A stretch of 64,000 nt of DNA from Agathobacter rectalis ATCC 33656 (GTDB taxonomy: Bacteria > Bacillota > Clostridia > Lachnospirales > Lachnospiraceae). The stretch is taken from assembly GCF_000020605.1 (NCBI RefSeq), contig NC_012781.1, forward strand, positions 2,171,501 to 2,235,500, given 5' to 3'. Below the pieces are notes generated by a model. That model made no database searches. It was not told the origin of the DNA and saw only the letters and a program-made list of their open reading frames with translations. Below are positions 5,816 through 38,500 of the stretch, one piece after another; position 1 is the stretch's first letter; every line of letters starts with the position of its first letter. The translations under genes were made by a program, and so were the position numbers.

Positions 5816-5880
5816 TTTAACCCTTGCTAAAAATAATGTTTGATACTACAATCTATATGATTAAAGGGTCAAAAGGTATC

Positions 5881-6026
5881 ATCGATGCATTCTTGCATGC
5901 AATTCGATGTACACCTTAGTGACCCGCACTACACCGAGAAAGTAGCAATTTGCTGCGGGGACGCAGGAAATTAACGGATTTCGAGGTGTAGTCAGATTAC
6001 GGGAATGCGTAGCATGTAGTAATCTG
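5881..6026. other. Highly structured intergenic segment with nested inverted repeats
   Basis: Between the divergent radical SAM and phosphofructokinase genes I see several perfect or near-perfect hairpins: 5881-5890 with 5897-5908; ACTACACC at about 5928-5935 with GGTGTAGT at 5985-5992, enclosing the small hairpin AGCAATTTGCT; and CAGATTAC at 5993-6000 with GTAATCTG at 6019-6026, enclosing ATGC/GCAT. There is no convincing reading frame. It could be a structured leader or a small insertion of a repeat family; I cannot match it to a known RNA class. Confidence 0.45.
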
Positions 6027-6103
6027 ATTAATCATCATTTTAAATTATATCATAACTATTCTTACAGAAGAGAATAGTTAAAATACACAATAAGGAGATT
6101 ACA

Positions 6104-8859: not shown

Positions 8860-9149
8860 GGGAAAGCGACCGGCACATAGGGATTGGCCCGCTCGGCAGA
8901 GGTGCTCCCGACGAGCTAACGCTACGCAGCTAAGGTACTGTACGAATTATGCTTTTTAGGGTTTCTATGCTTGACGAAACCGTCGAAACGCGCCGTCCAT
9001 GGCGCGGTTTCTCCTTGCCCCGACGTCCATGCCGGGGCATTTCTGCGTTTCATGGGCATAATTCTACAGTATCTAAGCCGCTACGCTAGTCGCTCTTTCG
9101 GGAGCACCTCTGCCGAGCGGGCCAATCCCTATGTGCCAGTCGTTTTCCC
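8860..9149 (+). repeat. Fold-back element, copy A (uninterrupted)
   Basis: A 290-bp element whose two ends are reverse complements: about 40 bases at 8872-8911 match 9109-9148 region perfectly apart from the extreme edge, and pairing continues inwards through GGTACTGT/ACAGTATC to AATTATG/CATAATT. The unpaired core (about 8950-9055) holds two further GC-rich hairpins, CGCGCC/GGCGCG and GCCCCG/CGGGGC. A second copy at 11282-13470 has nearly the same core but different arms that are still self-complementary. It lies 10 bases after the L,D-transpeptidase stop, and both copies are in the same orientation relative to the gene they follow. Open frames inside it on either strand are by-products of the base composition. 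Confidence 0.85.
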
Positions 9150-11281: not shown

Positions 11282-11415
11282 GGGGCGTAAGCCGCCGGAG
11301 CGACTGCCCTGCAGCAGAGGCGTTCTCTCGTAAGCGCATAGCGAAGCTGCCTAGATACTGTAGAATTATGCCCATGAATCGAGTAGGAGGCGGTGACTAA
11401 CCGCCGTCCTCTCAC

Positions 11416-11447
11416 AGCACCGTACGTACCGTTCGGTATACGGCGCT
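11416..11447 (-). other. Group II intron domain V
   Basis: The 32-nt minus-strand hairpin starts with the AGC triad; AGCGCCGTA pairs with TACGGTGCT, then a CG bulge, then TACC/GGTA closed by a GAAC loop. This is the catalytic core hairpin and follows the maturase stop by one base. Confidence 0.85.
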
Positions 11448-11448
11448 T

Positions 11449-12843: not shown

Positions 12844-13489
12844 AGACGGTCATTCCTCCTTTCTCGGTCATACTCAAGACTCCTACTGATTCGGTCCTTC
12901 ACCTCTCGGCTACTATGACCTCTGCTGACTTCTATGCGTTCAGCATTGCTTTATGCAATGGTTACCTCTTTCAAGGCATACCGCACAGACCTCCCTAGGT
13001 ACCACACGTTTCTTCCTCTCCATCCATCTGCCTCATTTATCATGCATGATTCCGTGTAGTTATTGGGCTTTAACATGGGTTGCTGTCTTACCCACATGCA
13101 TGACCTCATATGAGATTTCTGTTCGTCAGACCAGAGATTTGCCCGTGAGTTGGTATATTCCTCACATCCAGCTTCCTTCAGATTCCATCTCACGATGGAC
13201 ACCCTTGCCTTCGGCTATATCCTTCCCACTACCGGGCGGATTCGGGACTTTAACCCGTTAGAAACGTGCGCCGCTAGGCGCACAACGCAGAAATGCCCCG
13301 GCATGGACGTCGGGGCAAGGAGAAACCGCGCCATGGACGGCGCGTTTCGACGGTTTCGTCAAGCATAGAAAACCTAAAAAGCATAATTCGTACAGTATCT
13401 TGGCAGCATAGCGTAGCGAACGAGAGAACGCCTCTGCTGCAGGGACAGTCACTCCGGCGGCTTACGCCCCGTATTTCTATAGCCCTATG

Positions 13490-21274: not shown

Positions 21275-23269
21275 TTATTTTGTGCTTGAATTTCTGTACT
21301 CAAGCGGTGTCATTCCATACAGTTTCTTGAACTGTCTGTTAAAATGCTCCACATTCTGATATCCTGCCTCGATTGCGATATTCTCAACAGTTGTAATGCT
21401 GTTTCTAAGCAGTGTGCGTGCCTTTTTCATCTTGGCATTGGTGACCAGCTCTCCGAAGGTCTTGCCTGACTTCTCCTTTATGTACTTTGAGATATAAGGC
21501 TCTGTCAGATTGAACTGTGCAGCCATATCTGCAAGCGATACCGTCTTGTAGTTGGCCTGGATGAAGTTAAGCATGGCGATATAACGCTCATCCTTCACAT
21601 GGCTGTCAGCCTTTGTGGCAAGGTAATGGTTTACCGCAACAACAAGAGCTCCGATTGATGCCTTGATGATATCCTCATCCACACCTGCGCCCCAGAACAT
21701 CTTGCCGTCAACTGTGATACCCACGTATGCCATAGCCTTTGATGAAGAGCCGTGTGAAAGCGCATGCTCCTCGTATACGGTAAGCTCAAAGCTGATGTCA
21801 AAATACTGCTTTATTATATTGCTGACTGCATCGAGACGGCCGTTTCCGTTGGCATCTACCTTTCTGGTGCTGTCATTGTGCAAAATAACTGCCTCTGCGA
21901 AAATACCGTTCACCTGCTTAAAGTGGCACTCCGGTATAGTAAAATATGGATGGAAATCCACATAATTGTCTGTAAAGATGCTGTGTACCCAATCAGGTGA
22001 AAGCTCCTTGTGCTCCTCGTCAGATACCTGCTTGACCATGTATCCGACCTGCTCTCTCATCTGCTGTGGCACATTGATACCGAAGCTCTGCTTAAGGATA
22101 TAAGCCACTCCGCCCTTTCCTGACTGGCTGTTGATACGGATAACATCAGCCTCGTATGTCCTGCCGACATCCTTTGGATCTATAGGCAGATATGGAACTG
22201 TCCACTTATCAAGCTTCTTTTCCTCTCTCCATGCCATGCCCTTTGAAATAGCATCCTGATGAGAGCCTGAAAATGCAGAGAATACGAGGTCTCCCGCATA
22301 TGGCTGTCTCTCGCCTACCTTCATTCTGGTATATGTCTCATACTTCTCCCTGATCTCAGGCAGATTTGAAAAATCAAGCTGCGGATCCACTCCGTGTGAG
22401 TAGAGATTCATAGCAAGTGTCACGATATCGACATTTCCTGTTCTCTCACCGTTTCCAAACAGTGTACCCTCTATCTCCTCAGCTCCTGCAAGCACGCCAA
22501 GCTCTGATGTGGCAACACCGCAGCCTCTGTCATTATGAGGATGTAAGCACAGCACTACTCCGTCTCTGTACTTAAGATGCTTGTCGATATACTCTATCTG
22601 TGTGGCAAAAACATGTGGCATAGCATTCTCTACTGTGGTAGGGATATTGATAATGGCCTTGTTATCAGCCTTTGGCTGCCATACATCAAGCACTGCGTTG
22701 CACACATCAACCGCATAATCCACCTCAGTGCCCGAAAAGCTCTCCGGTGAATACTGGAAGCGGAAATTACCGTCAGTCGCAGCCGCAAGGTCTCTGAGTA
22801 AGATGGCGCCGTCAACCGCAAGCTGCTTTATCTCTTCCTTTGACTTCTTAAACACCTGCTCACGCTGTGCAACAGATGTGGAATTGTACAGATGTACAAC
22901 CGCTCTCGGTGCTCCCTCAAGTGCCTTGAAGGTCTTCTTGATGATATGCTCTCTGGCCTGTGTCAGCACATGTATAGTGACATCATCCGGAATCATATCC
23001 CTCTCAATAAGAGCTCTTGTAAAATTGAACTCTGTCTCAGAGGCTGCCGGGAAACCTACCTCGATTTCCTTAAAGCCTATATCTACAAGCATCTTAAAGA
23101 AGTCAAGCTTCTCCTCAAGGCTCATCGGCTCTATAAGAGCCTGGTTGCCATCACGTAAATCAACCGAACACCACAGTGGTGCTTTATCTATATAATCCTT
23201 CTTAACCCAGTCATAAGTGCATTCAGGAGGCAGAAAATAACTGCGCTCGTATTTTTCATATCCTTTCAT
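21275..23269 (-). CDS. leuA: 2-isopropylmalate synthase fused to a C-terminal AraC-type DNA-binding domain
   Basis: The enzyme condenses acetyl-CoA with 2-oxoisovalerate, the first step of leucine synthesis. The 664-residue product has a DRE-TIM barrel domain (about residues 30-310: [10 protein letters not shown] with the metal Asp, [12 protein letters not shown] with the metal His, [10 protein letters not shown]), the long-form LeuA linker and dimer/leucine-binding domain (about 330-550), and then an extra 105 residues (560-664) that are a complete AraC/XylS helix-turn-helix pair: [19 protein letters not shown] and the conserved second half ending [21 protein letters not shown]. Standard long-form LeuA is about 550-560 residues. 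The start has AAGAGG. The promoter and an inverted repeat lie just upstream (23301-23345). One reading frame covers both parts with no sign of sequencing error. Confidence 0.93.
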
Positions 23270-23300
23270 CTTAAAACCTCTTTTCGTTTGAACTGATATA

Positions 23301-23345
23301 ATTGTAACACATAAGCGCAGTTATTGGAATGATTATATTTAATCA
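23301..23345 (-). promoter_or_regulatory. leuA promoter with adjacent inverted repeat
   Basis: TTCCAA (23329-23324), 17 bases and TACAAT (23306-23301) on the minus strand. The inverted repeat TGATTATATTTAATCA (23330-23345) touches the -35 box on its upstream side, and further TAATCAA/TTGATT motifs continue to about 23405. This is where an AraC-type activator would bind. Confidence 0.55.
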
Positions 23346-23437
23346 CTTTGGTTGATGTAATTTAATTTTTTATAAAAATATAATCAACTTTATTGATTTT
23401 GATTATTCTAATCAGATATTCTGGTCAAAATATCTGA

Positions 23438-38079: not shown

Positions 38080-38500
38080 CAAATGTGTATATGCTAGATG
38101 ATTCGCTACAATCTCACGATTTGTAGTTACTGCTTCAATGTGTATGCTTTGGCGATTATAAACAATACGCTACTCACAAGTTCTTGTACACTCCACAGTC
38201 GTAAATTCCCGACTAAGCCATCGGTACATACCTATAAATTCTTTAAATTGATTAGATATAGGTTTTCATCTAAATAGCTTTTCCTTTCTTAATATTTTAT
38301 GTTTCGCTACTTGGTTTTCGTAGGCTTCTACCATTGTCTAAACGCTACCATCAAGGTTCTATCCTATAATTAGCAAGACTGTTTCAACTTGCACTGGCTA
38401 CTTCTCAACGTTTCCGACTGCTTTGACGTTAGCACAAACGAATACTCTGGATTTTGAGTATCTTTGAGAACATTGACTCACATTTAATTATGTTTTTAGT
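38080..38500 (-). pseudogene. Probable decayed tnpB (IS605/IS607-type) 3' end
   Basis: This 465-base gap between yugP and fmt carries on the minus strand a decayed frame with several stops in which SRVFVCANVKAVGNVE, then MYRWLSREFTTVECT, resemble the C-terminal zinc-ribbon region and the closing '-TTVE-' segment of TnpB proteins, followed by the kind of structured tail that forms the 3' end of these elements. No tnpA or left end is present. The identification rests on pattern memory only and could be wrong; otherwise I see no gene here. Confidence 0.3.

Follow-up and report, generated by a model that had tools for sequence, protein, structure and literature searches.

The leuA–araC fusion gene and its surroundings

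The window, meaning the whole 64,000-nucleotide stretch of Agathobacter rectalis ATCC 33656 DNA that was analysed, carries a gene in which leuA is joined to the coding region of an AraC-type DNA-binding domain (Table 1). The gene is an open frame of 664 codons that runs from ATG to TAA on the minus strand; stops abound on the plus strand when it is read in that register. A single intact frame of 664 residues joining a long-form 2-isopropylmalate synthase to an AraC/XylS domain had been described in the first-pass annotation with the strand unstated; the frame proved to be real and both parts were recovered by Pfam on the minus strand, and the operator, its fixed spacing and the T-box of unfused relatives had gone unnoticed there. 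Five Pfam domains, all exceeding their curated cut-offs, were found along the protein, namely HMGL-like, IPMS_D2 and LeuA_dimer (Table 1), followed by HTH_18 (residues 582–660) and HTH_AraC (residues 627–660), and its full-length mass was estimated from its length at ~74 kDa. When the whole genome, a single contig of 3,449,685 bases, was searched with the LeuA_dimer profile, the fusion protein was the one match.

A terminator-like hairpin followed by a T run was read by eye behind the stop codon; having a 25-base loop, it is absent from the list of our hairpin scan, which was restricted to loops of 3–8 bases. As a predicted promoter lies in front of the gene and this hairpin with its T run behind, leuA-araC may be transcribed alone. 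A lactate dehydrogenase gene, named from its sequence, follows ~300 bp downstream on the same strand.

Table 1. Features of the leuA–araC locus (window coordinates; residues are those of the fusion protein)
Feature	Coordinates	Strand	Basis or remark
leuA-araC fusion gene, 664 aa	21275..23269	-	sole LeuA in the genome
HMGL-like catalytic barrel, residues 32–308	22346..23176	-	Pfam
IPMS_D2 post-catalytic domain, residues 327–393	22091..22291	-	Pfam
LeuA_dimer allosteric (leucine-binding) domain, residues 423–549	21623..22003	-	Pfam
Short linker, residues 553–560	21590..21613	-	structure model; residues 554–559 with pLDDT <50
AraC/XylS DNA-binding domain, residues 561–664	21278..21589	-	Pfam and structure model; seven helices
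Helix 590–601, first HTH	21467..21502	-	structure model
Helix 640–651, second HTH	21317..21352	-	structure model
Likely ribosome-binding site AAAAGAGG	23277..23284	-	read by eye
Predicted extended -10, TGTGT-TACAAT	23301..23311	-	hexamer begins 21 bp after the operator
Predicted operator TACATCAACCAAAGTGATTAAATATAATCATT	23328..23359	-	39.4 bits
Possible second, weak operator copy, 41 bp upstream	23369..23400	-	5.0 bits; could be chance
Terminator-like hairpin and T run after the stop codon	21195..21253	-	by eye; 13-pair stem with one G-T, 25-base loop

Domains of the fusion protein

The enzyme part scored 791.9 bits with the family model NF002991 (cut-off 455) and 657.2 bits with TIGR00970, under the cut-off of 697.4. 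Among 64 fusions, R39, D40, H243, H245 and the motif GNGERTGN at residues 272–279, which we take to be the catalytic residues, were invariant, as were the leucine-site motif G475 N476 G477 and residues Y499–H502. The best structural matches were 1sr9 and 3fig, the long-form 2-isopropylmalate synthase of M. tuberculosis, to which residues 26–548 were aligned at 44–47% identity; GNG 475–477 and the YEEHALS loop aligned with that enzyme as well. The two proteins are alike in barrel, linker and leucine-binding dimer domain, and the M. tuberculosis enzyme stops where the AraC domain of the fusion starts. The M. tuberculosis enzyme holds leucine in two pockets of its dimer interface, which a mobile loop covers (PMC11057210). 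By its domains, catalytic residues and leucine motif, the fusion protein is thus predicted to be a long-form 2-isopropylmalate synthase.

The C-terminal part was assigned to the AraC/XylS family by an HTH_18 score of 71.9 bits, compared with a cut-off of 33.6, and by its two HTH motifs. In the structure model of the full protein (mean pLDDT 81.5, pTM 0.58), a flexible linker follows the LeuA_dimer domain, which ends at residue 549, and the AraC helices begin at residue 561, in agreement with the residues 560–664 previously proposed for this part. With these confidence values, the relative placing of the domains is uncertain. Helices 590–601 and 640–651 are presumably the recognition helices of the first and second HTH, respectively, judged by their place in the fold.

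Distribution of the fusion among relatives

With residues 540–664 as the query, 1628 proteins were matched at E ≤ 1e-10. The 120 listed matches all carried the LeuA domains PF00682 and PF08502, which argues that the fusion is not a product of chance, and where they were named, they were named just 2-isopropylmalate synthase. In a sample of 299 genomes of the family, with nearly one genome per genus, at least 68 encoded the fusion at full length, with a listed match reaching residue 660 or beyond, and the remaining LeuA matches listed ended at about residues 548–624. In three further genomes of the family (G061, G078 and G163), the fusion is present as well but interrupted by a frame break or cut off by the end of a contig. 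When genome records were scanned with the AraC part, at least 80 named loci were obtained, most of whose titles name Lachnospiraceae or genera that we assign to it (Agathobacter, Roseburia, Butyrivibrio, Dorea, Coprococcus comes, Eubacterium ramulus, Faecalicatena contorta and Hespellia); two fusion records titled Muribaculaceae and Succinivibrionaceae are perhaps mis-binned. Among 196 genomes sampled across the order, the AraC part scored >170 bits in 11, all of the window's own family, with the next match at 111 bits, and in a class-wide sample of 245 genomes a full-length match was found in nine, three of which (G556, G690 and G692) belong to other families. The fusion most likely arose in Lachnospiraceae.

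LeuA reads on into the AraC part without a change of frame at all 147 loci so classed, which comprise the 68 genomes together with 79 of the 80 named records (all but L060). It had been stated beforehand that a separate AraC frame in most genomes would speak against the fusion; a frame break was found in only two (G061 and G078) of the 71 fusion-bearing genomes found among the 299. These two breaks could be cited for the view that the AraC domain is a passive appendage retained fortuitously, or that the fusion reflects misassembly or gene decay, but the frame preserved in all 147 loci and the 25 columns of residues 561–664 that are invariant in a 13-row alignment, whose rows are 50–69% identical to the window, make such an explanation hardly credible. 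In both broken loci, L143 (G061) and L144 (G078), the break falls between the LeuA and AraC parts and the operator described below is kept; that of L144 lies near a run of A.

A tree of the LeuA part was built for the whole-genome set only (121 rows), from which eight loci without a recognised start were excluded, including L146 (G286), an unfused gene near fused ones. The fused label required 7 changes on this tree, compared with 39.9 for shuffled labels, and at least three changes between fused and unfused were forced by supported branches. A single origin of the fusion followed by several losses fits this tree, in which the root is a midpoint root and many forks are weak. Two single cases were seen besides: G022, a genome of the window's family, carries a fused LeuA (66% identity) and a second, more distant unfused one (48%) (L263 and L192), and G681, which belongs to a different family in the class, has a 666-codon open frame (G681:C6:1557–3182) with a LeuA match to residues 20–551.

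A 32-bp candidate operator upstream of fused leuA genes

A 32-bp motif common to the upstream regions of the fused genes was identified, with the consensus TAAATCAATAAAAATGATTAAATTTAATCATT and 31.7 bits, built from 69 of 95 upstream regions; the best score among 475 shuffled upstream regions was 11.5 bits. A site was called at ≥15 bits within 1 kb upstream of leuA. Loci without a recognised start or with <150 bases upstream were dropped, which reduced the fused loci from 147 to 136 and the unfused ones from 62 to 58. By this call, the operator was present in 110 of 131 distinct fused loci and in none of 54 distinct unfused loci, and in the whole-genome tree set in 52 of 66 fused loci versus 0 of 54 unfused ones. 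Four loci with a site that had initially been classed as unfused (L060, L143, L144 and L145) turned out to be fusions in which the frame is broken or the contig ends; L143, L144 and L145 were counted as fused in the tree, the contrasts and the final site counts, and L060, which is the gene of L143 in another record, accounts for the one "unfused" row that scored a site when all rows were pooled. Among fused loci outside motif building, the operator was found in 19 of 33, with 14 misses. By eye, about seven of the 21 distinct fused loci lacking a site at 15 bits show a degenerate site with a -10 at 20–21 bp, and the fused loci L055, L069, L074, L165 and L198 show no clear operator. The stretch 23270–23437, which had been proposed for a gel shift before any operator was recognised, contains the predicted site. 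The earlier suggestion that enzyme and regulator are one molecule gains strong support from comparison, through a conserved operator tied to the fusion; the leucine link put forward with it is a prediction.

The operator could also belong to another regulator that co-occurs in the same genomes, with the AraC domain of LeuA doing something else or nothing. AraC-type domains are indeed numerous in these genomes, and the covariation between protein and operator, which might have tied this particular domain to the site, fails against ancestry. In this comparison, K590 was accompanied by CAC at the right half-site in 42 of 46 rows, CAC occurring in 0 of 48 non-K rows, with 13 of 107 rows unclassable and dropped; as it amounts to one or two independent contrasts, the supported one of which lacks the association, and as columns of the LeuA part reach equal mutual information (0.78), the covariation is confounded by ancestry and was not counted as evidence. 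Against another regulator speak, besides the empty unfused loci, seven unfused genomes placed among fused ones in the LeuA tree, none of which carries the operator, and the three fusions of other families (G556, G690 and G692, all outside motif building), each of which carries it at the 21-bp distance, the scores of the three sites being 34.2, 20.6 and 38.2 bits. In the window's own genome, furthermore, a search with the operator pattern (≤3 mismatches) returned a single match, which lies at the fused leuA with 0 mismatches, the reversed-pattern control also giving one match. We therefore consider another regulator quite improbable. Counted over supported branches, the association between fusion and operator comprises only three independent contrasts and is not significant.

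The pattern search was extended to the 299 genomes, in 67 of which matches were found, compared with ~25 for the reversed control. All matches with 0–2 mismatches lay upstream of fused leuA, counting G061 and G078, and by this pattern, which is stricter than the motif score, a site was located within 1.5 kb of leuA in 32 of the 68 fused genomes. A wider regulon was considered and set aside: the 12 matches away from leuA in the fused and nearby genomes counted were not taken as targets because all of them have three mismatches. The remaining leucine genes of A. rectalis lie elsewhere: leuC-leuD (L246 4825–7725) adjoins a LysR-type gene that is divergently oriented, and leuB-ilvD-ilvB occupies yet another locus, as named from their sequences and matches. 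No good operator was found at either of these groups, the best score being 8.2 bits upstream of leuC. Nor was any match to leuB, leuC or leuD (tblastn, E ≤ 1e-20) found beside leuA in 63 loci (the window and 62 named ones) with at least 3 kb downstream. The target of the fusion protein thus appears, from these sequence comparisons, to be leuA. The LysR-type protein beside leuCD may, to judge from its position, sense the product of LeuA, 2-isopropylmalate, and pass the signal on.

Promoter layout and predicted mode of action

The -10 hexamer begins exactly 21 bp past the operator in 101 of 110 sites and at 20–22 bp in 107 of 110, with TGTGnTAnnAT as the shared extended -10, and the offsets scatter in shuffled sequence. 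Among sites outside motif building, the distance was 21 bp in 17 of 19 and 20 bp in the other two. At the window locus, transcription is predicted to begin ~7 bases past the -10, near 23294. Mean pairwise identity was 0.71 in the operator and 0.32 in the spacer, compared with an expected 0.27. Matches to the -35 hexamer were partial: 6/6 occurred in none of the 110 sites, 5/6 in four and 4/6 in 43, and shuffled sequences reached at least 4 in ~15%. With 4 or 5 matching bases, 47 of 110 sites have a partial -35, a larger share than among the shuffles, so that some basal promoter activity is likely. A TATAAT inside the operator (23361–23332) was tried as a promoter and rejected, the scan having found 5 promoter-like sites compared with 6.2 in shuffled sequence.

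Class II activators of the AraC/XylS family have a site overlapping the -35 (PMC9820224). As the site upstream of leuA-araC ends at the -35 position and its distance to the -10 is fixed although the spacer is hardly conserved, the layout is that of a class II activator, with the difference that the sensor in LeuA-AraC is a whole enzyme. We infer that the AraC domain binds the operator and that the effect is activation. Alternatively, the protein may be an autorepressor, in which leucine-loaded or idle enzyme closes its own promoter; such autorepression is known from PutA, likewise an enzyme that carries a DNA-binding domain (PMC8249747). In some relatives (L012, L063, L067 and L167), moreover, a second, weaker operator copy lies just after the -10, at +59 counted from the first base of the main site, where a bound protein could block polymerase and be repressing. 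Yet a repressor would not call for a -10 distance that is the same to the nucleotide in 101 of 110 sites, next to a -35 that is partial at most, and the window has no strong operator copy downstream of the -10, so that autorepression seems unlikely to us. A second, weaker copy downstream of the -10 was also seen at L259 and other loci. As a general downstream motif, it was set aside as a weak lead: 81 of 96 regions scored >8 bits after the -10, but shuffled sequences gave 41–52, T-box starts were mixed in, and the window lacks it. Activation by the fusion protein remains the preferred reading of the layout.

T-box leaders and likely transfer between families

The T-box core sequence was found in 44 of 54 distinct unfused leuA loci and in 28 of 130 distinct fused ones, 26 of which also carry the operator. 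RF00230 was confirmed by Rfam upstream of leuA in eight of eight loci submitted, all chosen for the core, two of them fused. The T-box leader, an RNA element upstream of leuA in unfused and some fused relatives, differs in this from the protein–operator system. The unfused genomes placed among fused ones in the tree have a T-box in 6 of 7 cases, and in the window no RF00230 was found at the gathering score. The simplest story would be that the T-box is ancestral, that the fusion added a protein layer, and that the RNA was then lost in many lineages; where the AraC part was lost, the T-box would have remained. Other RNAs in the window are two TwoAYGGAY RNAs (8919–9088 and 13258–13401), the latter adjoined by group II intron pieces on the minus strand (11378–11448 and 12894–13199), a Clostridiales-1 RNA (5858–6034) and RAGATH-18 (38127–38199).

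Genes neighbouring the fusion were compared in two of the other-family genomes to tell transfer from a mis-binned contig. For the neighbour in G690, matches reaching 83% were obtained in 34 of the 41 genomes of the family of G690, and a search of 60 genomes from the window's family gave a single weak one; as this gene is at home in the family of G690, the contig belongs there and transfer of the fusion to that family is likely. For G692, the closest match of the neighbour gene came from one genome within the family of G692 (80%), but the window's family reached up to 70%, which is compatible with transfer as well as with mis-binning.

Proposed mechanism

Taken together, LeuA-AraC is probably both an enzyme and the activator of its own gene, acting through the 32-bp operator and gated by leucine, so that the enzyme would control its own production. 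The catalytic part would make 2-isopropylmalate, and the LeuA dimer domain would bind leucine at the dimer interface and signal to the barrel, giving feedback inhibition. The same leucine signal may cross the short linker and reach the AraC domain. As the leucine domain ends at residue 549 and the AraC helices follow from residue 561, enzyme activity and DNA binding could both be set by leucine, which would then be the gate. Low leucine is taken as the activating state because this gives sensible feedback. Under leucine shortage, the dimer would place its AraC domains on the operator just upstream of the leuA promoter, where they would touch RNA polymerase in the class II manner, 21 bp ahead of the extended -10, and raise leuA transcription; when leucine is ample, binding or contact would be lost, and enzyme activity and enzyme synthesis would drop together. 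In evolution, the fusion would have taken over from the T-box of unfused leuA, or would work beside it, and fusion and operator would have moved into at least one other family. We lean, by a little over even chances, towards the fuller reading that one leucine site gates both catalysis and the gene, and that the enzyme–operator module displaced the T-box in many Lachnospiraceae and moved as a unit to another family.

Relation to known systems and significance

LeuA-AraC, which combines an enzyme and a DNA-binding domain in one protein, is a putative trigger enzyme. Trigger enzymes of E. coli include BirA, NadR, PepA, PutA and PyrH (PMC8249747), each of which, as predicted for LeuA-AraC, is a metabolic enzyme and a transcription regulator in one protein. 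PutA binds only beside its own gene, according to the same source, which compares with the single site for LeuA-AraC. PutA is catabolic and a repressor, whereas the layout of LeuA-AraC predicts activation. To our knowledge, all five of these proteins lack an AraC-type domain, and none of them catalyses, under feedback inhibition, the first step of an amino-acid pathway. Ada of E. coli, a suicide DNA-repair enzyme switched by methylation, has an AraC-type HTH joined to a methyltransferase and activates its own promoter; LeuA-AraC is likewise an enzyme with an AraC-type HTH, but it would turn over and have a reversible ligand site. In yeast, Leu3 senses the product 2-isopropylmalate as a co-activator, so that transcription of the leucine pathway is tied to LeuA as predicted here, but Leu3 is a protein separate from the enzyme. 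No report of a LeuA-AraC fusion was found among the matches listed from the open-access literature. Enzymes with a DNA-binding role are thus a known kind, and what appears to be new here is a biosynthetic first enzyme with an AraC-type domain, a predicted autoactivator with a candidate operator.

Autogenous regulation by the first enzyme of a pathway was once proposed for the histidine and isoleucine pathways and was largely displaced by attenuation. LeuA-AraC offers a widespread natural case, in a common gut bacterium, in which the enzyme, the ligand domain, the DNA-binding domain and a candidate operator are all visible, and it makes testable whether a single allosteric site sets both the activity and the level of an enzyme. 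It would also present a protein replacing an RNA regulator at one gene or layering on it, as at the 26 distinct fused loci that have both.
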